DNA of 51,987 nt from Bacteroidota bacterium (GTDB lineage Bacteria; Bacteroidota; Ignavibacteria; UBA10030; UBA8401), in contig JAGVPT010000182.1 of assembly GCA_020052095.1 (NCBI GenBank), positions 1 to 51,987 on the forward strand, read 5' to 3'. Positions 13,330 through 25,334 of this stretch are shown piece by piece. Both the position numbers and the translations under genes were made by a program. How positions within the stretch are numbered: position 1 is the stretch's first letter; each line of letters opens with the position of its first letter. The notes beneath the pieces are model-generated. The model ran no database searches. It was not told the origin of the DNA and worked only from the letters and a program-made list of their open reading frames with translations.

Positions 13330-15075
13330 CTACTCTCCCCGCTCGAAGTACTTCATTGCAACGAACGATCCCGCTCTTAGGCGGTACAGATATTTTCCCC
13401 TTCGCAGCAATTTCGCATCGACGGAGACAATGTACGTGCCGGCTTCCTGTGTCTCCCTCACAAGGGTGATCTCTTTTTTGGTCAAGGTATCCTGAACAAT
13501 CAGTTCCACCGGGCTTTTCTCACTCAGTTCGTACGATATATACGTCTTGTCCGAAAACGGATTCGGATAATTTTGAGCAAGGGAATGACGTACTGGCGGA
13601 GCACTGTGAACTCCTGGGGCAAATTGTGAGAAAGTCCCGCCACTCTCGTTGTGTCCTTTGTCGATCGCAGTAACGGTATAGTAGTAGTGTATATTATTGA
13701 CTGGCGCCTCGTCCACGTACACGGTACGCGTCGCGGGTATGACCGCAAGGATGTTGCGCGCGTTATCAAGTGCGATGTCCTCGTCCGTCGAACGATACAC
13801 GACGTAGTTCCGTGCGCGGTCGCCGTCTGCGGCCGGGGGCGGCTCTTTCCACCGAACGATTGAGGTGTTGTTAGAAGATTGTGTCACGTGAATATCGGTT
13901 GGCGGAAGCGGCGGGATGGAATCTTTCCACGGCATTGGGGGAATGAGTGCCTGGTATTTGTATGTAATGGAAATTCCCGGAAGATCAAGAATGTTCTGGT
14001 ACCGGAAAAATGCTTGCCCCTGACTTCCCATGCTCCGCGTCAGATAAATCTGCTCCGTGATTTCTTTCTGAATATTCTCACGGTATGCGCCGAGCCCTGC
14101 GTACACATGCCGGCCGAAATTATTCTTCGTCCAGTCGATGCACAGCGCACGGAAGTCGGGGTCGTTCGGATTTGTCTGCTCGCCGAAATCCCAATACATC
14201 TGGGGCGCGACGTAGTCTTGAATTTTTTCTTCCAACCATCGCCGCGCATCTTGATAGAGAAAGGGGTACCCGGAAAAGCCCGATTGCGCCCCGACAATAG
14301 GTTTGTATATTCCGAGCGGCGCCGACCCGACTTTCATTGCCGGCCTTTCTTTGGTAATCTGATCATACATCTCACGCACAAACGCGGTGATGTTGTTGCG
14401 CCGCCACTCGTCGCGTTCGAGCCCATCACTGTGGAGGCCGAACGATTTCCAATCATCGAACTTTTCTCCGGGATAGCGGATATAGTCGAAGTGAATTCCA
14501 TCAAGATCATATAACTGCACTAATTCCATTACAAGATTCTCAGTATACCCGCGGAGTTCAGGTCTTCCCATGTCCACCCACCACTCGCCTCCATACAGTT
14601 GCGCCCATTCCGGATGGCTGCGGAGAACGTGTCGCGGGGAACTCAAAGGGGGCAGCCCCGCCGTGTACACTTTTGCGACATTAAACCATGCGTGCAGCTC
14701 CATCCCGCGCTTGTGGGCTTCTCCGATGGCGAAATCGAGTGGATCCCAGCCGGGGTCTTCTCCCAAAGTCCCCGTGAGCTCAGCCGCCCACGGCTCATAA
14801 CGCGACCTGTACATCGTATTTCCTCGCGACCGCACCTGAAAGAAAACAGTGTTGAAGTGTTTTTCCTGAAGAGTCTCAAAAATCTCCACAAGAGTTCTTT
14901 TCTGCGCCGCAACGTCGTAGGTTTTAGGCCAATCGGCACCACCGGCGGTTGTCAACCACACCGCGCGGACCTCCCACTTCGGCGCTACAATATTCGGTTG
15001 AGCGTTCAAAGGAATGAGGGATGAGGGAAGAGGGATGAAAAGAGTGATCAGAAGAAGCTGCTGGTATTGTTTCAT
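13330..15075 (-). CDS. Secreted GHL10-family glycosidase-like protein with T9SS tail
   Basis: The 581-residue protein resembles the GHL10/DUF187 family, putative glycoside hydrolases that fold like family 10 enzymes and have been linked to cell-wall or surface glycan breakdown. After a signal peptide (to about residue 26, ending N-A-Q) the GHL10 domain begins with E-x-R-A-V-W-L-T-T and continues through F-N-T-V-F-F-Q-V-R and L-H-A-W-F-N. It ends near residue 340 with the Y-W-D segment. A fibronectin-III-like domain follows (about 395-490), then a sorting domain starting N-Y-P-N-P-F. The signal-peptide codons overlap a GGGATGA-type simple repeat (about 15012-15038). Substrate is unknown. Confidence 0.85.
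   Translation of the reverse strand: MKQYQQLLLITLFIPLPSSLIPLNAQPNIVAPKWEVRAVWLTTAGGADWPKTYDVAAQKRTLVEIFETLQEKHFNTVFFQVRSRGNTMYRSRYEPWAAELTGTLGEDPGWDPLDFAIGEAHKRGMELHAWFNVAKVYTAGLPPLSSPRHVLRSHPEWAQLYGGEWWVDMGRPELRGYTENLVMELVQLYDLDGIHFDYIRYPGEKFDDWKSFGLHSDGLERDEWRRNNITAFVREMYDQITKERPAMKVGSAPLGIYKPIVGAQSGFSGYPFLYQDARRWLEEKIQDYVAPQMYWDFGEQTNPNDPDFRALCIDWTKNNFGRHVYAGLGAYRENIQKEITEQIYLTRSMGSQGQAFFRYQNILDLPGISITYKYQALIPPMPWKDSIPPLPPTDIHVTQSSNNTSIVRWKEPPPAADGDRARNYVVYRSTDEDIALDNARNILAVIPATRTVYVDEAPVNNIHYYYTVTAIDKGHNESGGTFSQFAPGVHSAPPVRHSLAQNYPNPFSDKTYISYELSEKSPVELIVQDTLTKKEITLVRETQEAGTYIVSVDAKLLRRGKYLYRLRAGSFVAMKYFERGE
15012..15038. repeat. GGGATGA-type simple repeat inside a signal-peptide coding region
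   Basis: The plus strand shows GAATGAGGGATGAGGGAAGA and then GGGATGA. On the minus strand this encodes the I-P-L-P-S-S-L-I-P-L part of the GHL10 signal peptide. Three perfect tandem copies of the same heptamer occur at 17291-17311. Confidence 0.5.
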
Positions 15076-15098: not shown

Positions 15099-17279
15099 TT
15101 ATGCGTGTGGACGCACTTCAAAAATTTCTATCGGCTGTTCTTTCCCCTTCACCCGAATAGCTTCAAGCTTCACCAATTGGAGCGAAGTTGAGCCGTGTAG
15201 ATAGCGCGCAGAGTTCTCCGAGATCAGGATTTGGCCCCGCTTCGCTGCACTGCACAGTCGTGCGCCAAGATTAACAGCATCACCAATGACGGTGAAATCC
15301 ATCCGATCCTCGCTCCCCATCGCCCCCATCACCATCTCGCCGGTGTTAATGCCGATACCGATGCCGACATCCTCTCCCGCCGTTGAGGTGACCTGGCTCA
15401 TTGTCTGCTGGATTTCCGCTGCACATTCCACGGCGCGGTGTACCATGGTGTCACCCTGAAATACCGCCACCATCTCGTCCCCGACAAACTTGTCGATGTC
15501 GCCGCCGTACTTTTTTACGATCGCCGTCTGGCGGCTGAGGATGGAATTGAGCATTGTAACGACCCGCTCTGGTTCAACTTTTTCCGAGAACGAAGTGAAA
15601 CCTCGCACGTCTGAGAAGAATACCGTGGCCGTCTTCCGCTCGCCGCCGAGCTTCACCCCCATCACATCCGACCGGCGCACGGCATCGACAGTCTGCTGTG
15701 ATACAAATTTCTGAAGATGAAATCGTTCCCGCAATCCAACGATCATCTCGTTAATGCGCGAAGCGAGATCGCCGATCTCATCGCCGGAACGTACGTTCGC
15801 ACTCACCGAGAAATCCCCCTCCCCCACCTTTTGTGCAACGTCGCCAATATTGCCGATAGGATGAACGACCACTCTTTTCATGAAGACGCGAAGGACGAGC
15901 CAGACCAGCACAATTGTTAACGCGCCGGTAATTAACGAATAGATCTTAGATCGTCTGATGGTTGCATTGATCTCCGCCATGGAGGCTGCGACCTCGACCA
16001 CGCCGCGGACACTGTGGTCTGTACCGTGGCAACCCTGGCACCGTTTATCGTTTATGAGCGGAGAGAAGCGGACAAAATACTCTTCTCCATCAACGATCTC
16101 TTTTGTTTCGATCACCTGCTTGGCGGCCAAGGCTTTGCGCGCAAAGCTTTTTCCGTACTCTTCCATCGGGCGATCGACGAAGCGTTCGTTCCCCTCCCGG
16201 TCGAACACGCGAAGATCGCGCACGGCCGGTATTGTCCGGACATCGTTAATAAACGAACGGACGTAGCTTCCTTTTCCGACAAGCATAATGCTTCGGAAGC
16301 CGACGCCCACCGATGCCTGGAGCATCATCGTGAGCTGCTTCTTGAGAGAATCGACATTCCGTTGTAAATGAGCCGCGCGGAGCGTAACAGCCATGACGCC
16401 CCGCCAGGGGTTCTTCGGATCGTGGCAAACTTGGCACCGCTCTTCGTTTCGCAAAGGGATCAGGCGCGTGAGAAAACCATGTGGCTTGTCAACGATTTCG
16501 ACGGGTTGAGCTTTTGAGAACGCAGCGAGAATAACTTCGGGCTTCTGTATATTTTTTTCGAGGCCGAAATGCAAATCACCGAATCTATCGTAGACCTGGA
16601 TGCGCTCAATGAACGGCAATGCGGATGTGCGATTAATAAGCGTGTCCATCAGAGGACCTTCGCCCGACACCATGATATTGCGGAAGCTTGCAGCAAGCGT
16701 GTTGCAGACGATCTCGCTCACCTCGGACTGGATCTGGAAAAAGTTCTCATTGATGGAACCATTTCCAAGGGCATTCATCAGTTCCGGCTTCAGCGTGACC
16801 CACGTTACACCCCGCACACTATGGTTGCCTCCGTGACATTGTTGACACTCTTTATCGTTGAGCAAAGGCTCCAGTCTCGTGAATACCGGGCCGGTTGCCT
16901 CCGACGGCGCCATCGCCATCACCTCGCCCTGCGTTTCTATCGCCCGCCTCACATTCGGATCCCCGGTGCTCTTAATTATCCCCTTCCCCTCTTCTTGAAA
17001 AACTTCATTTGCCTCTCTGTCGTACACCTTCAGAGTGCCGGACTTCAGGCTGTCCCGCGCGTCGTTCACGAACGTGCGAGCGTAGCTCGCTTTGCCCGAA
17101 AGCATGACGTTGCGGATGCCGACCATAATGGTCTGGCCAAAGAGCATCGACTTTTCCCGGTTCTGTTCGATCAGTGCGTTTGATTGATTGCTGATCGAAA
17201 CGACCACGTACGTTCCGAACCCTAGAATGAGAACGATGATGATGAGAAGAAGTATTTTTGTTTCGAGACGGTTCTTCAT
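15099..17279 (-). CDS. Membrane nucleotidyl cyclase with three haem-binding sensor repeats
   Basis: This is a class III adenylate/guanylate cyclase, probably making cAMP. The 726 residues are ordered as membrane helix (8-30), extracytoplasmic sensor (31-445), second helix (446-467), HAMP linker (468-520) and cyclase domain (550-726). The sensor is three repeats about 135 residues apart. Each has an R-N/S-(V/I)-M segment, a V-(Y/F)-D-R-x-G-like strand and one C-x2-C-H motif at C145-H149, C282-H286 and C414-H418, the first and third followed by G-x-x-H-S-V-R-G-V. The cyclase has metal ligands Asp557 and Asp601, Lys597 and the V-I-G-D-A-V-N-L motif, so it should be active. The likely signal is redox state or a haem ligand. 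No cAMP receptor is nearby. It lies 139 bases after herA in the same direction. Confidence 0.88.
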   Translation of the reverse strand: MKNRLETKILLLIIIVLILGFGTYVVVSISNQSNALIEQNREKSMLFGQTIMVGIRNVMLSGKASYARTFVNDARDSLKSGTLKVYDREANEVFQEEGKGIIKSTGDPNVRRAIETQGEVMAMAPSEATGPVFTRLEPLLNDKECQQCHGGNHSVRGVTWVTLKPELMNALGNGSINENFFQIQSEVSEIVCNTLAASFRNIMVSGEGPLMDTLINRTSALPFIERIQVYDRFGDLHFGLEKNIQKPEVILAAFSKAQPVEIVDKPHGFLTRLIPLRNEERCQVCHDPKNPWRGVMAVTLRAAHLQRNVDSLKKQLTMMLQASVGVGFRSIMLVGKGSYVRSFINDVRTIPAVRDLRVFDREGNERFVDRPMEEYGKSFARKALAAKQVIETKEIVDGEEYFVRFSPLINDKRCQGCHGTDHSVRGVVEVAASMAEINATIRRSKIYSLITGALTIVLVWLVLRVFMKRVVVHPIGNIGDVAQKVGEGDFSVSANVRSGDEIGDLASRINEMIVGLRERFHLQKFVSQQTVDAVRRSDVMGVKLGGERKTATVFFSDVRGFTSFSEKVEPERVVTMLNSILSRQTAIVKKYGGDIDKFVGDEMVAVFQGDTMVHRAVECAAEIQQTMSQVTSTAGEDVGIGIGINTGEMVMGAMGSEDRMDFTVIGDAVNLGARLCSAAKRGQILISENSARYLHGSTSLQLVKLEAIRVKGKEQPIEIFEVRPHA

Positions 17280-17418: not shown

Positions 17419-19044
17419 TCACGAGCGGTCTTGCCTCCACCACCGTTCAACAACATCGGAAACGTTGGTCTCTTTTTCGGAAGCGACCCACTTGTCGTAA
17501 AACTTAATGTCGGCGCTGTCGGGGGGCGGTGCAGGATAATCGAGCAACACGCGAACCGGCAACGGCGTCGAATCGCCGATCACAAGAGCCTCGCCGGGCC
17601 GCAGCGTTGGCAGAATGTCGAACAATCCGCTGAATGAATCGGGGACTAATTTTTTGACGTAGTTCTGGTCGGTGGGATTTGTCAATCGCAAAGTGATAAA
17701 ATTATTGCACTGCGAAAGAATTGTCTCGGAGAGTTCCGACGGTCGCTGGCTCACAATCATACATGCGACTCCGTATTTGCGCCCCTCCTTCGCAATGCGC
17801 TCGACCGTCCGACGCGCAGCCTGATTGTGCTGCGACGGGATTTGTGGTAGATAGTTGTGTGCTTCTTCGAACACCAACAGGATGGGAAAGTCTGATTTGT
17901 TCTTGTTCCAGAAATTAAAATCGAACACCATGCGGGCCAGCAGCGACACAATAACGTTCACAATGTCGAACGGAACCCCGCTCAAATCGATAACCGTGAT
18001 TTGTTTCTTGATGTCTAATCCAAAGATTCTCGAGATAACGTCCTTGATTGCGACCGAGTCTTTAAACTTCTTTGGCTTGAACATGAACTGATATCGATTG
18101 TCCGTCATGCGGCTGTCCAGCCGCACAAGCAAGCGCGTGAACTGGCCGTAAAATGGACCTTCGCGCGATGGACCGCCGCTCATGCCGGTAATCCGCTCGG
18201 TATCATAGAATTGGAACTTGGCTCGAACTTCATTTAAGTCGTAAAACACAGGCGAGTCGATCGTGATGAACTCCTTCAGGGTCGGGTTCTTTACTTTTTT
18301 TGCATTCAATACCAAATCTTTGAGGAGCATTACCTGGCTTTGTGCCGACGGCTCGCTTTCATCCACAAAAGTCTCCTGCATCTCCTCGAAATTCATGAAC
18401 CAATGCGGCAGCTCAAGGTCGGTGATGTTGATGATGTTTCCGAAGTCGCGAAACGCTGCTCTATATTCATTATGAATATCGAGAATGATAACGTGCGTAT
18501 TTGAAAACATCTGTACTTTTTGAAGAATGGACGACACGGCTGTGGATTTGCCGGAACCCGTGGAGCCGAGCAACGCAATGTGCTTACCGAAGAACTTGTT
18601 CGGGTCGATGTACTGCCTCTCTCCCAAATAGCCCGAGATATCTCCTATGGAAAAACCGAACTGCGCAAAAGTAGAGAAGAGCGAGGTCATATCGCTGTCA
18701 TCGGTCATGAATACATCTGCGCCGATTGCCGGGAAGCTCGCAATACCTTTCTCAAATCGTCCCTTGACGACGGAACCAATGAGCTGAAGCTCCATCTCCT
18801 TCTTCGCCTTTACAATGTCGGTTGAAGTCCCCTGGAATTGCTTGGACAACCGGACTTGCGTCACCATTCCCATCACGCTCGTCTCGCCAACCGGCACAAC
18901 GACAAACGAACCGATTTGTCCGACTCGATATGTCTTTCCATTGATTGTTCGTTCCATTGAGACAATGGTCTCGTCTAACAGCGCAATGGCTGTGGAACTG
19001 CTGATGCTATAAATGACGCCGAGATGCTTCTCTGTGGTAGACAT
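17419..19044 (-). CDS. HerA-like hexameric ATPase/translocase
   Basis: HerA/FtsK-type ATPases of the DUF87 group pump DNA and act in end resection with NurA, or in defence with partners such as SIR2. The 541-residue protein has a HerA-type beta-barrel start (residues 5-95), Walker A G-S-T-G-S-G-K-S-T (160-168), the I-L-D-I-H-N-E-Y strand, and Walker B I-L-L-V-F-E-E-A-H-N-Y. It also shows the K-E-G-R-K-Y-G and S-Q-R-P-S-E sensor segments. No NurA, SIR2 or nuclease gene is adjacent, so its partner is unknown. Start ATG at 19044; the promoter is at 19096-19124. Confidence 0.85.
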   Translation of the reverse strand: MSTTEKHLGVIYSISSSTAIALLDETIVSMERTINGKTYRVGQIGSFVVVPVGETSVMGMVTQVRLSKQFQGTSTDIVKAKKEMELQLIGSVVKGRFEKGIASFPAIGADVFMTDDSDMTSLFSTFAQFGFSIGDISGYLGERQYIDPNKFFGKHIALLGSTGSGKSTAVSSILQKVQMFSNTHVIILDIHNEYRAAFRDFGNIINITDLELPHWFMNFEEMQETFVDESEPSAQSQVMLLKDLVLNAKKVKNPTLKEFITIDSPVFYDLNEVRAKFQFYDTERITGMSGGPSREGPFYGQFTRLLVRLDSRMTDNRYQFMFKPKKFKDSVAIKDVISRIFGLDIKKQITVIDLSGVPFDIVNVIVSLLARMVFDFNFWNKNKSDFPILLVFEEAHNYLPQIPSQHNQAARRTVERIAKEGRKYGVACMIVSQRPSELSETILSQCNNFITLRLTNPTDQNYVKKLVPDSFSGLFDILPTLRPGEALVIGDSTPLPVRVLLDYPAPPPDSADIKFYDKWVASEKETNVSDVVERWWRQDRS

Positions 19045-19273: not shown

Positions 19274-20557
19274 CTATTTAATAAGTGAAAGCCTTTTTGT
19301 TTCCGAGAAACCTCCCGCTGTCAATCGATAAAAGTATACGCCGCTTGGGAAATTCGCAGCGTACCATTGAACCGAATAACTTCCGGCAGGCTTCTCTTCA
19401 TTCACCAGCTCCGCAACTTCACGTCCAAGCAGATCCATTATCGTCAGGGTAACCAAACCTTTCACTTTCAACTCATAACTTATCACCGTTGCCGGGTTGA
19501 ACGGATTAGGATAATTCTGCTCGAGCGAAAACCTCATAGGTGCGGTGTCTACCTCATCAACCCATGTCACCCCGCCGTTTGTCGTCTTGTAGATTCTGTT
19601 TGTTCCTCCGACAGCCCAGCCGACCCTCTCATTCACCATGCTGAATGATTCGAATCCAAGATAGTTGGAAGGGATGAATTGTTGCGTTTCCCACGTTTCC
19701 CCGCCATTTGTTGTATGTCCAATGTAAGGCTCAACATTGAGCGCACCCACAAACCAGCCGACACGACTATTTAGGAATTTCACTTCACGCAAACTGCTTC
19801 CGCCTTTTTCTGTGGCCGACCACGACGATCCACCGTTTGTAGTTCGTGCAATGACCATTGTTCCCGAGATTCCGCCGACTGCCCACCCACTGTCTGGTGA
19901 GATGAAGAAAACATCTCGCAACGGGTATGGGTATGACACACTTGAATCCTGGCGGCTCCACGTGGTGCCGCTGTCTGCTGTATTGAACACGGCCCCATTG
20001 TACGCAACCGCCCAACCCCGTGATTGATTTGCAAAAGAGATTCCTTCGAAGGTGTCGTAGGAAGTGGTTGTATCAAGATAGACCGTATTCCACGCTGTCC
20101 CCGCATTTGAAGTCTTCTTGATAATTGCAATGTACTTCGAACCGGAGACCCAAGTGTAACCACACGCAAAACCTACCTGGGGACCACCAAATGCAAATTC
20201 CGAAAAGGCGAATCCGGAACTGTCGACAACCTGCCAGGTAATACCCCCGTTTGTTGTGCGTCGAATTCCTGCGGTAGCCGGATTTACACCATCGTAATTG
20301 GCGCAAAATACAGTATTGGTGTCGAGAGCGTAGAGGGCCGATGCTGCCCCCCGAGACGTATCCTGAGCAAACCACGTCGCTCCGCCGTTGGTGGTCTTCC
20401 AGATGTGTGAGTTGCTTGTAACCCACCCGATGTTTTCATTTGCGAATCGCACCTTCCAAAGATACTCGTCAGCAGGGAACAGTTGACGATACCACTGGGC
20501 GGAGAGGGAACTTGTAAGGAACAGAAGCAACAGAGTAAGAATGATAGTGCGTCTCAT
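19274..20557 (-). CDS. Secreted YCF48/BNR beta-propeller protein with T9SS tail
   Basis: The 427-residue product has a signal peptide beginning M-R-R-T-I-I-L and ending S-L-S-A-Q-W. It is followed by propeller repeats with G-W-x-x, T-T-N-G-G-x-T-W and V-G-x-x-G motifs of the photosystem-II-stability YCF48/BNR-like type. The C-terminal 75 residues form a type-A sorting domain (N-Y-P-N-P-F-N through the K-x-x-x-L-I-K end), so it is exported by T9SS and attached to or released from the surface. I placed the start at the ATG 20557 because the signal fits; the frame also allows 20578. Function beyond surface display is unknown. It is a paralogue of the genes at 20586 and 22701. Confidence 0.85.
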   Translation of the reverse strand: MRRTIILTLLLLFLTSSLSAQWYRQLFPADEYLWKVRFANENIGWVTSNSHIWKTTNGGATWFAQDTSRGAASALYALDTNTVFCANYDGVNPATAGIRRTTNGGITWQVVDSSGFAFSEFAFGGPQVGFACGYTWVSGSKYIAIIKKTSNAGTAWNTVYLDTTTSYDTFEGISFANQSRGWAVAYNGAVFNTADSGTTWSRQDSSVSYPYPLRDVFFISPDSGWAVGGISGTMVIARTTNGGSSWSATEKGGSSLREVKFLNSRVGWFVGALNVEPYIGHTTNGGETWETQQFIPSNYLGFESFSMVNERVGWAVGGTNRIYKTTNGGVTWVDEVDTAPMRFSLEQNYPNPFNPATVISYELKVKGLVTLTIMDLLGREVAELVNEEKPAGSYSVQWYAANFPSGVYFYRLTAGGFSETKRLSLIK

Positions 20558-20585
20558 TTGTTCATTGTATGGTTGCATGATGAAA

Positions 20586-21878
20586 TTATTTAATGAGTAA
20601 AAGGCTTTTTGTTACCGAAAAACCTTCCGCTTCCAATCTATAGAAGTACACACCGCTCGGAAAATTCCTGGCGTTCCAGCGAACCGAATAACTTCCGGCA
20701 GGCTTCTCCTCATTCACCAATATCGCAACTTCGCGTCCAAGCAGATCCATTACCGTTACAGTAATAAAACTTTTCACTTTTAACTGGTAGCTTATCACTG
20801 TCGTCGAATTAAACGGGTTCGGATAATTCTGATCGAGAAGAAATTCCTTTGGCGCGGGGCCCGGCGCTTTGCCAACATCGACGACAATCCCGCCTCCATT
20901 GTTCGTGTGGAGGAGCGTGCCCGAATCGCCCACGGCAAAGCCGTTATTCACATCGCAGAAAGAGATGGCCTTGAGGCGTCGCGTTGTCAAGCCGGTGAAG
21001 GAATTCCACGAGTCGCCGCCGTTCGTCGATTTGTAGAGCATGCCACCGTCTCCACACACAAAGATGTTATTTATTGAGGGCGCCGATATTCCATAGAAAG
21101 TCCCGTCGTGAAGAACCCCCTGGGAGACGCCTGTCCAAACTGTGTCCGCCCCCATCCTTCGAATTATTGCCGGCGCAGCGCGAAGGTCTCCCTGAACTCC
21201 CACAATGAAACTCGTACCGTAGCCGCAGATAGTCCCTTTAAATGCCTCAGATCCCAACCCCTCGAAATTTTTAAGAATTGATTCCTTCCATGAGCTCGGT
21301 GGATAACTCCCCCACTCACAGAGTGAAAACGGGGTAAGGGCAAAAATCAGGAATTCTTCGATGACACTATTCCACGCGAAAATCGATCGAATTGGCCATT
21401 GACTTATATTTTTGCCAGTCCACGTCTTCCCGGTGTCGATTGTATGATAGATCCAGCCCGAGTCCGCCCCGACATAGATGCTTGCGTATCCGGTTTGCAT
21501 AACAGATAGACACTTTCGCGTTGACGGGACAGATCGGTTTACCCACGTGAAACCACCGTCCGTTGTGGTCATAATGCGCTGGTCGCCGACGATCGTTCCA
21601 TTCAATGGACCAGAGAACGAGATGCCGTTCCACCAATACGGAGCGCTAATGGCCGCACTTTGGTTTGTCCACGTCGTGCCCGCATCGGTTGTTCGAAGAA
21701 CACCGTTTCTATCGCCGACCGCAAGGGCGTTCATTGAATCGAGTGTGACAACCTCAACGATATTTTCAGGCGTCTCGGCGTTCTGTTGCACCCATTGCGC
21801 TGAGGAGAACTGGGCCGCGAGGGGAATTACTGCAAACAGGAGCCATGCGCGCATAAGCTTTGACAGATATGTTTTCAT
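20586..21878 (-). CDS. Secreted YCF48/BNR beta-propeller protein with T9SS tail
   Basis: The 430-residue product starts at an ATG with a clear GGAGG five bases upstream. A signal peptide ends at S-S-A-Q-W-V-Q-Q-N, then YCF48-like propeller repeats follow (A-V-G-D-R-N-G, T-T-D-A-G-T-T-W, S-T-N-G-G-D-S-W). The type-A sorting domain occupies about the last 75 residues. Its sorting-domain DNA is strikingly similar to that of the downstream neighbour, which suggests recent duplication or conversion. The stop lies close to the next gene's start, so the two are probably one transcript. Confidence 0.87.
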   Translation of the reverse strand: MKTYLSKLMRAWLLFAVIPLAAQFSSAQWVQQNAETPENIVEVVTLDSMNALAVGDRNGVLRTTDAGTTWTNQSAAISAPYWWNGISFSGPLNGTIVGDQRIMTTTDGGFTWVNRSVPSTRKCLSVMQTGYASIYVGADSGWIYHTIDTGKTWTGKNISQWPIRSIFAWNSVIEEFLIFALTPFSLCEWGSYPPSSWKESILKNFEGLGSEAFKGTICGYGTSFIVGVQGDLRAAPAIIRRMGADTVWTGVSQGVLHDGTFYGISAPSINNIFVCGDGGMLYKSTNGGDSWNSFTGLTTRRLKAISFCDVNNGFAVGDSGTLLHTNNGGGIVVDVGKAPGPAPKEFLLDQNYPNPFNSTTVISYQLKVKSFITVTVMDLLGREVAILVNEEKPAGSYSVRWNARNFPSGVYFYRLEAEGFSVTKSLLLIK

Positions 21879-21913
21879 ACCCACCTCCTGGCTCGCGCGA
21901 CCGAGACGCTAGC

Positions 21914-22630
21914 TTACTTCATGTAATTCATTTTACCGACCTGCACCACATCTCCAACTGTCATCCGGTAGAAATAAATTCCACTCGGAAAGTTTGCCGC
22001 ATTCCATTGAACAGAATGCTCGCCCGGATTCAACTCTCCATTAATCAACGTCGCGACTCCTCGACCAAGCAGATCGGAGATCTTCAGAGTAACAAATTGA
22101 GATGTGGGAACAATGAATCGAAAATTTGTCGCGGCATTGAATGGATTAGGATGATTGATCAGCCGGCTTATTTCCGGAGGCGAGACCGACTTCCTTTCGA
22201 CCGTGACCGGCACATTGTTGCATTCAGACTGGAAGCCAGTGATGGAAAAATAAGGGAGCAGGTTGGGGCTTGACATAGAAAAGGTTACGGAGCCCACAAA
22301 ATAGAGTGTGTCAATTGGATAATCGTAGATCTTCAACTGCTGACGGTAAACCATCGCGACAAAATTGCCGGACAGGTTCACAACCGTGACATTGAGATCG
22401 AAAAGACATGTGCATTTTGCCCGAGGTCCCACCGTATCCCGCTCGACGATGACAATTGTGTCGAGGTTGACCGTAACGACAAACGCGAATTTAGATGCGC
22501 AGTTGCTCTCGGTGTTCTTATGCCAGATGGTTGCCGTATCACCGTGGGCAATTACACAGAGGGAATCAAATCCGGCGTACGCTGAACCGTATGCAACGAC
22601 AAGCAGGAGTATTGTTTGAAGGGCTTTCAT
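21914..22630 (-). CDS. Short secreted protein with T9SS tail, body unrecognised
   Basis: The 238-residue product has a signal peptide (M-K-A-L-Q-T-I-L-L to about residue 19). It then has a body of about 135 residues rich in beta-strand and containing cysteines (C24 region, C43, C74, C76), and a type-A sorting domain with the variant H-P-N-P-F-N. I do not recognise the body. It lies in line with the propeller paralogues and shares their sorting signal, so it is another T9SS cargo. The upstream gap holds two G+C-rich stem-loops. Confidence 0.75.
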   Translation of the reverse strand: MKALQTILLLVVAYGSAYAGFDSLCVIAHGDTATIWHKNTESNCASKFAFVVTVNLDTIVIVERDTVGPRAKCTCLFDLNVTVVNLSGNFVAMVYRQQLKIYDYPIDTLYFVGSVTFSMSSPNLLPYFSITGFQSECNNVPVTVERKSVSPPEISRLINHPNPFNAATNFRFIVPTSQFVTLKISDLLGRGVATLINGELNPGEHSVQWNAANFPSGIYFYRMTVGDVVQVGKMNYMK

Positions 22631-22645
22631 AGAGGCGCTCCTCCC

Positions 22646-22692
22646 CTCCGCGTTTAGGCGGAGATTCCGGCCCGCTTCCGGGTAATAGCGGG
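22646..22692. repeat. Two adjacent G+C-rich stem-loops between cargo genes
   Basis: CTCCGC/GCGGAG (22646-22651 and 22658-22663) and CCCGC/GCGGG (22671-22675 and 22688-22692) form two small hairpins without T-runs. They may be processing or stability signals in a leftward transcript. Confidence 0.4.
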
Positions 22693-22700
22693 CTGGATCA

Positions 22701-24032
22701 TTATTTCAACAATATCATCCTCTTCGTTGAAACAAAGTCGTTGACCACGAGCCTGTAAAAATAGACACCCGTGGACACCAAATTTCCGAATCTGTTTCTT
22801 CCATCCCACATAACTTTGTGAGTGCCAACCCCTATTCGTTCTAACAACAACGATTTCACCTCTCTCCCAAGAACATCATAGATACGAAGGTCGACATTCC
22901 CCCGCTCTTTCACTGCGAATTGAATTTCAGTTGTCGGATTGAACGGATTGGGATAGTTCTGCTCAAGAGAGAATTCTTTAGGCATAATATCCGGCTCTTC
23001 ACCAACGCTCGTGACACCACCGTTGGAAGTAAAAAGAATTGTTCCCGAATCTCCAACCACAAAACCGTAACGCTCGTTGTAAAAGTCGATTGCGTTTAAT
23101 TTCCTCGTGGTTCCGGTTGGCAGTGGAAACCAAGATGTGCCGCTGTCTATTGTTTTCACAAAAGAACCAAAATCGCCACAGGCAAATGCTACACTGGATG
23201 TTGGCACAGTAACATCATTCAAACCTCCTCTAAAAACTGGAATCGGCATGGGAGGAGGGAAAATATATTTTTGCCATGACGTATCGGCTGAAGTTTTCCT
23301 TAGTATCACAGGAGTCACTTTAAGTTGCCCATCATAGCCAACAATAAAAGCCGGTTCGCCTGCTTTAAAGTTACTTCCTTTGGTTGCAGCACCCCACATA
23401 GTTATTCCGAGATGTTCTTCTCTCCACGTAGAATCAATAAAGTCATAAAATTTTGTTGAATACACGGTATAGTTTGTTAAAGCGTAAACCGGTCTCCAAC
23501 TCATGATTGGCAATGTATAATAAAAAATTGATTTGATTGGTCCCGTCGTTATCTTTTTAGAACTCCACGCCTTACCAGTATCAATTGATTGATATATGCG
23601 ACCAGAATCATCACCGACATATATATGATTAAGTCCTCTGTAGTCAGTGGCAAGGAATATTTCAGTCCCAGTTATGGAGCGTAATTGCCATTCCTCTCCT
23701 CCATTGGTTGTCGTCATCAAGAAAGAATCTCCAGCAACTATTCCGTGAAGTTTGTCAAAAAATGACATGCTATTCCACTTCATCAGAATATCAATTGACG
23801 GCTCTTTGTGTATCCACGTTGCCCCGGAATTCGTCGTCTTGAGAATAGAGCCTGCACGACCTACTACAATCGCTGTCGTTGTATCAAGCATGACAACATC
23901 GGTGAGCTTTTCTGCGGTACCGCTGTTTTGTTGAACCCACTGCGCAATTCCACACTCCACAAGAAAAAGTACCGTAATAAGCCAACCATAAATTCTTGTT
24001 TTTATAACATACCCCGCTTCAGTAGTGTCCAA
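22701..24032 (-). CDS. YCF48/BNR propeller protein with T9SS tail, start disrupted by an IS
   Basis: The body matches its paralogues: signal peptide ending G-I-A-Q-W-V-Q-Q-N, YCF48-like repeats and a sorting domain with N-Y-P-N-P-F-N. The open frame now begins with a TTG (24032) inside the terminal inverted repeat of the IS4 element, reading M-D-T-T-E-A-G through the target duplication. In the pre-insertion sequence an in-frame TAA lies upstream of this point, and no ATG or GTG precedes the signal peptide. The codon aligned with the paralogue's initiating M-K-T is ATA (24005-24003), followed by K-T. The gene is therefore either started at a rare ATA, started at the IS-borne TTG, or silenced. 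Confidence 0.75.
   Translation of the reverse strand: MDTTEAGYVIKTRIYGWLITVLFLVECGIAQWVQQNSGTAEKLTDVVMLDTTTAIVVGRAGSILKTTNSGATWIHKEPSIDILMKWNSMSFFDKLHGIVAGDSFLMTTTNGGEEWQLRSITGTEIFLATDYRGLNHIYVGDDSGRIYQSIDTGKAWSSKKITTGPIKSIFYYTLPIMSWRPVYALTNYTVYSTKFYDFIDSTWREEHLGITMWGAATKGSNFKAGEPAFIVGYDGQLKVTPVILRKTSADTSWQKYIFPPPMPIPVFRGGLNDVTVPTSSVAFACGDFGSFVKTIDSGTSWFPLPTGTTRKLNAIDFYNERYGFVVGDSGTILFTSNGGVTSVGEEPDIMPKEFSLEQNYPNPFNPTTEIQFAVKERGNVDLRIYDVLGREVKSLLLERIGVGTHKVMWDGRNRFGNLVSTGVYFYRLVVNDFVSTKRMILLK
24011..24019. repeat. Left 9-bp target-site duplication of the IS4 element
   Basis: ACCCCGCTT directly before the left inverted repeat; the same nine bases follow the right end at 25348-25356. Confidence 0.85.
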
Positions 24033-24164: not shown

Positions 24165-25334
24165 ATGAACACAGGACGGACAATATTTTCTCAAGTGATG
24201 GATTACGTTCCGATGCACGAATTTCATCGTTGCGTTGAACGCTATGAGGGTTCATATAAGGTTCAGAAATTTTCTTGTTGGAATCATTTTCTTTGCATGG
24301 CATTTTCACAATTGACATATCGTGAAAGTCTACGGGACATTGTTCATTGTTTGGGCGCTCAACAATCGAAGCTGTATCATCTTGGTTTTCGAAGTGCCAT
24401 AACACGAAGCACATTGTCGTATGCAAATAATACTCGTGATTGGCGCATCTATGCGGACCTTGCCGCTGTGTTGATGACGACAGCAAAAGAGTTGTATCGT
24501 GACGAACCCTTTGGTCTCGAGATAACGAACACGGCGTATGCTCTTGACTCTACAACGATTGATTTATGTTTATCCATGTTTCCTTGGGCAAAGTTCCGGC
24601 AGAAAAAAGCTGCCGTGAAAATTCATACTCTGTTAGATTTGCAAGACCATATTCCTTCAATTTTGGCTATTTCCAGCGGAAAAATGCACGATGTCAATGC
24701 CCTTGATCTCTTGGTTGCTGAACCGGGGGCAGTGTATATCTTTGATAGAGCATATATCGACTTTGCTCGCTTGCATCAGTTAACTCGATCTTGTGCTTAC
24801 TTTGTGACACGATCAAAATCGAACATGCAATTCAACAGACTCTATTCACACCGTGTCAATAAAAATCTTGGGACACTTTGCGATCAGACTATTCGTCTCT
24901 CAGGTTTCTATACATCGCAAGACTATCCCGACACGTTGCGTCGTATCAAGTACCGCGACACTGAAAGTGATAGAACGTTTGTCTTCATCACGAACAATTT
25001 CCTATTACCGTCTCTGACTATTGCACAACTCTACAAATGTCGTTGGCAAGTCGAACTCTTCTTCAAATGGATTAAACAACATCTCCGCATCAAAGCTTTC
25101 TATGGAACATCCGTCAATGCAGTGAAGACTCAAATTTGGATCGCTCTATCTATTTACCTGATTGTTGCTATCATCAAGAAACGATTGAAGCTCGAGCACA
25201 GTCTTTACACAATTCTACAGATTTTGAGTGTATCCTTGTTTGAGAAAGTCCATATTGCTCATGCACTTACAGACACACAGCCTCTTTTTGAACAACCCAT
25301 TGCACATAATCAATTGAATCTATTCCACTTATAG
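24165..25334 (+). CDS. IS4-family DDE transposase
   Basis: The 389-residue protein has the IS4-type N-terminal domain (F-S-Q-V-M-D-Y-V-P) followed by a DDE catalytic core. The candidate triad is Asp128 (A-L-D-S-T-T), Asp194 (I-F-D-R-A-Y) and Glu297 in the Y-x2-R-W-Q-x-E-L-F-F-K-W-I-K signature that marks the family. Length is full, and the gene looks intact. ATG 24165 has a good AAAGGA upstream within the hairpin. It lies antisense to the surrounding T9SS genes. Confidence 0.95.
   Translation: MNTGRTIFSQVMDYVPMHEFHRCVERYEGSYKVQKFSCWNHFLCMAFSQLTYRESLRDIVHCLGAQQSKLYHLGFRSAITRSTLSYANNTRDWRIYADLAAVLMTTAKELYRDEPFGLEITNTAYALDSTTIDLCLSMFPWAKFRQKKAAVKIHTLLDLQDHIPSILAISSGKMHDVNALDLLVAEPGAVYIFDRAYIDFARLHQLTRSCAYFVTRSKSNMQFNRLYSHRVNKNLGTLCDQTIRLSGFYTSQDYPDTLRRIKYRDTESDRTFVFITNNFLLPSLTIAQLYKCRWQVELFFKWIKQHLRIKAFYGTSVNAVKTQIWIALSIYLIVAIIKKRLKLEHSLYTILQILSVSLFEKVHIAHALTDTQPLFEQPIAHNQLNLFHL

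Follow-up and report, generated by a model that had tools for sequence, protein, structure and literature searches.

A predicted receptor adenylate cyclase with three tandem c-type haem Cache domains in one order of the Ignavibacteriae/Bacteroidota

The gene at positions 15099 to 17279 of the window (the whole stretch of 51,987 nucleotides that was analysed) encodes a predicted receptor adenylate cyclase with a haem sensor in three parts. At the level of sequence, three complete haem sites, the membrane topology, an intact adenylate-type catalytic site and deep conservation are established; haem loading, Met ligation, the direction of the response, the dimer and the cAMP effectors are what we infer beyond that. 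We put at about two in three the probability that the protein is a tri-haem periplasmic receptor in which the haems switch between Met-on and Met-off states, driven by redox or by NO, and thereby set the synthesis of cAMP.

Domain organisation

The features of the gene and of the encoded protein are as follows.

15099..17279, minus strand: tri-haem sCache receptor adenylate cyclase gene, 726 aa (open reading frame and translation; full-length orthologues L018-L025)
17199..17255, minus strand: transmembrane (TM) helix 1, residues 9-27 (hydropathy 3.07)
16755..17174, minus strand: haem-sensor repeat 1, residues 36-175, PF21563-like (PF21563 32 bits at 16797-17129)
17103..17105, minus strand: Met59, predicted axial ligand of haem 1, equivalent of GSU0935 Met60 (20/20 homologues; role from PMC8396549)
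16833..16847, minus strand: CQQCH haem-attachment motif 1, residues 145-149 (CXXCH in 20/20 homologues)
16344..16751, minus strand: haem-sensor repeat 2, residues 177-312 (PF21563 38 bits at 16383-16682)
16671..16673, minus strand: Met203, predicted axial ligand of haem 2 (20/20 homologues)
16422..16436, minus strand: CQVCH haem-attachment motif 2, residues 282-286 (CXXCH in 20/20 homologues)
15942..16343, minus strand: haem-sensor repeat 3, residues 313-446, membrane-proximal (PF21563 56 bits at 15978-16292; 3b42 E 2e-10)
16284..16286, minus strand: Met332, predicted axial ligand of haem 3 (aligned with GSU0935 Met60; 20/20 homologues)
16026..16040, minus strand: CQGCH haem-attachment motif 3, residues 414-418 (CXXCH in 20/20 homologues)
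15879..15935, minus strand: TM helix 2, residues 449-467 (hydropathy 2.32)
15729..15881, minus strand: HAMP domain, residues 467-517 (PF00672, 1.8e-11)
15132..15635, minus strand: class III cyclase domain, residues 549-716, with D557/D601, K597/T663 and N670/R674 (PF00211, 2.8e-25)

By hydropathy, two strong hydrophobic segments flank all three repeats, in agreement with the proposal of an earlier, sequence-only reading that the repeats face outside. A weak third peak (residues 316-334, 1.46) lies inside the helix that opens repeat 3 and was not counted as a TM helix. Since hydropathy places TM helices only at residues 9-27 and 449-467, the repeats are expected to lie together in the periplasm.

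The three CXXCH motifs begin at residues 145, 282 and 414, and the spacings of 137 and 132 residues bear out the figure of about 135 given in the sequence-only reading. The M-S-G-K...D-R-x-G pattern that it had assigned to each repeat is approximately right, the versions found being MLSGK, MVSGE and MLVGK, and YDREA, YDRFG and FDREG. The repeats are mutually homologous (pairwise BLASTP E-values of 3e-14, 9e-29 and 1e-17; identity 26-36%). In 20,000 shuffles of the 726-residue protein, CXXCH occurred on average 0.0015 times, and no shuffle contained three.

Family and predicted fold of the sensor repeats

Pfam recognises three separate PF21563 (Mcp40H-20_sensor) stretches in the protein, of 56, 38 and 32 bits, all above the curated cut-off of 27 bits (protein E-value 3e-33). 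The profile comparison with DUF3365/Tll0287 that had been suggested earlier places the repeats in the sCache_heme family but not in its Tll0287 type, PF11845 reaching an E-value of 1e-6 against 3e-33 for PF21563. An assignment to the Tll0287-like, Cys-ligand family PF11845 was rejected as the weaker of the two, with Met conserved at the ligand position. Their sequence places the repeats together with GSU0935 and GSU0582 in the branch of sCache_heme that signals and has a Met ligand, not in the Cys-ligand Tll0287 type. Motif positions and predicted secondary structure put the CXXCH ahead of the last beta strand, which is the arrangement of sCache_heme and PF21563.

The closest solved relatives by sequence are GSU0935 (3b42) and GSU0582 (3b47), the c-haem sensors of Geobacter chemoreceptors. 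In repeat 3 the residue aligned with Met60 of GSU0935 is Met332, which lies 82 residues ahead of the first Cys as compared to 80 in GSU0935, with a two-residue gap; in the alignment Met59 and Met203 are the equivalents of Met332 in repeats 1 and 2. The haem of GSU0935 is held by Cys140, Cys143 and His144, plus Met60 in the low-spin form; Met60 is bound when the haem is reduced, released on oxidation and displaced by NO or CO, and in the crystal it is bound in just one of the two subunits (PMC8396549). Alignment to this one structure, with Met bound in one of two subunits, predicts Met ligation at all three sites.

The structure prediction that had been proposed was run with AF2 on the sensor region and gave a helix-helix-beta unit repeated three times, in which a short helix bearing the CXXCH precedes the last strand; this is a monomer model without haem and of moderate confidence (pLDDT 74, pTM 0.62). 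A Foldseek search with this model returned 3b42_B, 3b42_A and 3b47 as the top three PDB matches (E-values 7e-5 to 1e-3). The large RMSDs of these alignments might stem from the domain swap that the 3b42 and 3b47 crystals are known to have. The fold of this moderate-confidence model is Cache-like, with GSU0935 and GSU0582 as its nearest relatives.

Conservation and origin of the three repeats

A scan of genome contigs, with patterns that favour close relatives, found full-length orthologues in eight MAG contigs (L018-L025), all from the Ignavibacteriae/Bacteroidota, and a profile search found orthologues in about 22 genomes, including a partial one, in the families of the order coded f1, f4 and f6. 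The CXXCH motif and a Met equivalent to Met60 are present in 60/60 repeats of the 20 distinct homologues with all three sites, and when 17 of these homologues are compared in full, both belong to the small set of residues that never vary in each repeat.

In a maximum-likelihood tree of the 60 repeats and 11 single-domain sequences, the first repeats group together (97/99), as do the second (99/98) and the third (92/95), and all 60 repeats stand together apart from the single-domain sequences (92/85). Since repeats 1, 2 and 3 each form one branch, a single triplication older than the split of the three families is indicated, and by the same tree the copies have evolved without homogenisation since then. 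A recent or artefactual duplication is ruled out by the repeat tree and by the independent MAGs.

The triple form was seen nowhere outside this order in surveys of 294 genomes of the class and 345 genomes of the phylum. The translated matches outside the order are single-haem chemoreceptors and histidine kinases, their outputs being assigned by reading of the sequences, and a plasmid search with the sensor region gave no match.

Genomic context

Two genes accompany the cyclase gene in the window.

17419..19044, minus strand: HerA-like ATPase (DUF87), conserved upstream neighbour
13330..15075, minus strand: GHL10 glycosyl-hydrolase-like protein, downstream neighbour within the same family, at a gap of about 23 bp

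In family f1 the HerA-like ATPase, the cyclase and GHL10 follow each other in one direction. The order in family f6 is MutS ... cyclase, SpoIIE-type phosphatase, HerA, MsrP, MsrQ (L163:9170-13738; L166:1225-5985; L022, L023, L164). HerA lies close to the cyclase in 13/13 external loci with enough flanking sequence, some of them being the same species twice, and also in the window. In five relatives (L167-L171) that lack the cyclase gene at this place, GHL10 still comes after HerA, and these loci represent natural empty sites. The cyclase has therefore been gained or lost as a single gene at a fixed place, and the HerA neighbour common to f1 and f6 suggests loss of the cyclase rather than repeated gain. 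The case for a functional tie between the cyclase and HerA is weakened by the HerA orthologues of the five examined relatives, which pair with GHL10 in the absence of the cyclase.

In the family of the window itself, the neighbouring genes do not point to a signal. MsrP and MsrQ repair periplasmic methionine sulfoxide, and since the predicted haem ligands are Met, the presence of these genes near the cyclase in f6 only is suggestive of a link to oxidative stress.

The best NCBIfam match of the HerA-like ATPase of the window is the anti-phage-associated HerA NF042944, at 427 bits with a cut-off of 850. Another part of the window (19274-24032, minus strand) encodes a group of YCF48-like (PSII_BNR) proteins plus one other, with C-terminal sorting tails of the secretion-system type; a DDE transposase (24165-25334) adjoins this cluster.

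The host genome (3.9 Mb, 98.8% complete) encodes two CcmF-like proteins, one CcmC-like and one CcsA-like protein, the subtypes being assigned by reading of the sequences, and c-type haem attachment is therefore likely to be possible in this organism. The genome also encodes nine cNMP-binding (cNMP_binding) proteins, aa3-like and cbb3-like oxidases and a multihaem cytochrome. Similarity to class III cyclases was found in about ten other places; these other cyclases match the HAMP/cyclase region only, apart from weak matches that start near residue 403-435.

Signal, sensing repeats and product

We propose that the protein would act as a homodimeric transmembrane receptor adenylate cyclase with three tandem single-haem Cache domains in the periplasm, each repeat carrying a covalent c-type haem on its CXXCH, with the His of the motif as proximal ligand and a Met that can bind or let go on the distal side. 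Met59, Met203 or Met332 would be detached, at one or more of the haems, when the haem iron is oxidised or NO binds. Release of the Met would move the helices at the N-terminal end of each repeat, and this movement could travel via the connecting helices to TM2 and HAMP, where it would alter the geometry of the cyclase dimer and with it the cAMP output. The cAMP may then be read by some of the nine cNMP-binding proteins of the host. The three haems, distinct since one ancient triplication, would probably allow a graded or threshold response; two of the three could also be non-signalling.

The conserved tri-haem arrangement probably reports redox state or nitric oxide. Extracellular redox state, the signal named in the sequence-only reading, is graded here as no more than plausible, since signalling members of the family also bind NO tightly (PMC12889525, PMC8396549). 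In a more elaborate scheme the haems would differ in potential or exchange electrons, and the redox poise of the envelope, possibly fed by respiratory or extracellular electron-transfer cytochromes, would reach cAMP synthesis as a multi-level or cooperative signal; we regard this extension as speculative and rather unlikely.

The strongest competing explanation is that the protein is specifically a periplasmic NO sensor, whose haems would be kept reduced in an anoxic or microoxic habitat and whose Met would be displaced by NO, so that cAMP reports nitrosative stress and redox has no signalling role. The signalling sCache_heme protein of P. azotoformans indeed binds NO and releases it slowly (koff of about 6e-4 per s), without forming a stable complex with O2 (PMC12889525), and GSU0582 and GSU0935 bind NO reversibly (PMC8396549). 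However, that characterised NO sensor is predicted to be without a strong distal ligand (PMC12889525), as opposed to the Met found in 60/60 repeats of the tri-haem proteins. Moreover, the two full COX1-family proteins of the host read, from their sequences, as aa3- and cbb3-type oxidases and so do not establish a source of NO, and three NO sites per chain bring no obvious advantage. An exclusive role in NO sensing is doubtful, if worth serious attention.

Somewhat less probable, and in our judgement unlikely, is that only the membrane-proximal repeat 3 signals, with repeats 1 and 2 serving as an electron relay or as a stalk that bridges the envelope and repeat 3. With 56 bits, as compared to 38 for repeat 2 and 32 for repeat 1, repeat 3 is the nearest to the known sensors, and it adjoins TM2 and HAMP, while repeat 2 evolves fastest (mean identity 42% versus 49%). 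Yet the Met switch ligand and the CXXCH are invariant in every repeat, which goes beyond the needs of a passive stalk.

The earlier claim of an apparently complete class III cyclase holds, PF00211 matching with an E-value of 2.8e-25 and every catalytic residue being there. D557, D601, K597, T663, N670 and R674 are all invariant in 17 full-length homologues; from general knowledge of class III cyclases we take D557/D601 to be the metal, K597/T663 the purine and N670/R674 the transition-state residues. The residue set of a class III adenylate cyclase (IIIb), i.e. the metal Asp pair, Lys/Thr and Asn/Arg, is complete. In the fold alignment the Lys/Thr pair matches the adenylate cyclase CyaB (3r5g), whereas the guanylyl cyclase Cya2 (2w01) has Glu/Val in these positions, and the predicted product is therefore cAMP. 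Profile, phylogeny, conservation and predicted fold all speak for the idea of a class III cyclase with a tri-haem sensor, and K597/T663 narrow its "cAMP or cGMP" output to cAMP. The strong similarity to the guanylyl cyclase Cya2 (7.5e-30) might point to cGMP as the product, but with the CyaB-like pair invariant in the 17 homologues, this is very improbable.

That the haem motifs are accidental or vestigial and carry no covalent haem is hardly credible, given the CXXCH and Met in 60/60 repeats, the homology to crystallised c-haem sensors, the CcmF- and CcmC-like proteins of the host, and the shuffling and conservation, which together rule out a chance origin of the motifs.

Relation to known systems

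Each repeat shares with GSU0935 and GSU0582 the fold family, the CXXCH and a Met at the axial position, and in both cases the sensor lies between two TM helices and is followed by HAMP. The Geobacter proteins have one haem domain per chain and a chemotaxis output, whereas here three domains in tandem are joined to a predicted adenylate cyclase output. Tll0287 differs in having a Cys ligand where the tri-haem protein has a predicted Met. The cyclase domain resembles the class IIIb adenylate cyclases CyaB of P. aeruginosa and CyaC of Spirulina (it shares the Lys/Thr pair of CyaB, and the fold alignment gives about 38% identity between the two), but its sensor is a c-haem Cache array. Control of a class III cyclase by haem state is known from soluble guanylate cyclase (H-NOX) and from the globin-coupled adenylate cyclase HemAC. 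These use a cytosolic, non-covalent b-haem, in contrast to the three covalent c-haems predicted outside the membrane.

The protein shares its membership of the sCache_heme (DUF3365/Tll0287) family and its sensor-HAMP-cyclase plan with proteins described in the 2026 preprint of Deshpande et al. (PMC12889525). Since Guanylate_cyc is among the frequent fusion partners of sCache_heme in that preprint, as single-haem fusions (PMC12889525), the joining of a haem-Cache sensor to a cyclase is in itself already known. The terms "tandem", "repeat" and "two sCache" are absent from the main text of PMC12889525, and a conserved tri-haem tandem form was not found in the open-access papers searched.

According to a review, two Geobacter signal proteins, GSU0591 and GSU0599, carry two c-haem motifs. 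Histidine kinases in related genomes (L115, L116, L118, L119, L120) contain a CX2CH followed about 50 residues further on by a CX4CH (CSNAECH-like), and these are possible di-haem sensors of another design. At another locus, L114 (G005:C14:10769), an open frame of 1551 residues contains a single c-haem motif and then several PAS-like segments.

The characterised c-haem Cache sensors have one haem per chain, and it is unsettled whether redox or NO is their physical signal. A natural tandem form with switch ligands invariant across three families offers a direct test of whether the signal is tuned by how many haems there are and how they are spaced, with cAMP, through the coupled cyclase, as an easy read-out. 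If the proposal is true, this enzyme would be unusual among class III adenylate cyclases in taking its input from covalent haem outside the cytoplasm; and if the haems were to differ in potential or exchange electrons, the protein would be a multi-haem transmembrane redox receptor with a second-messenger output.
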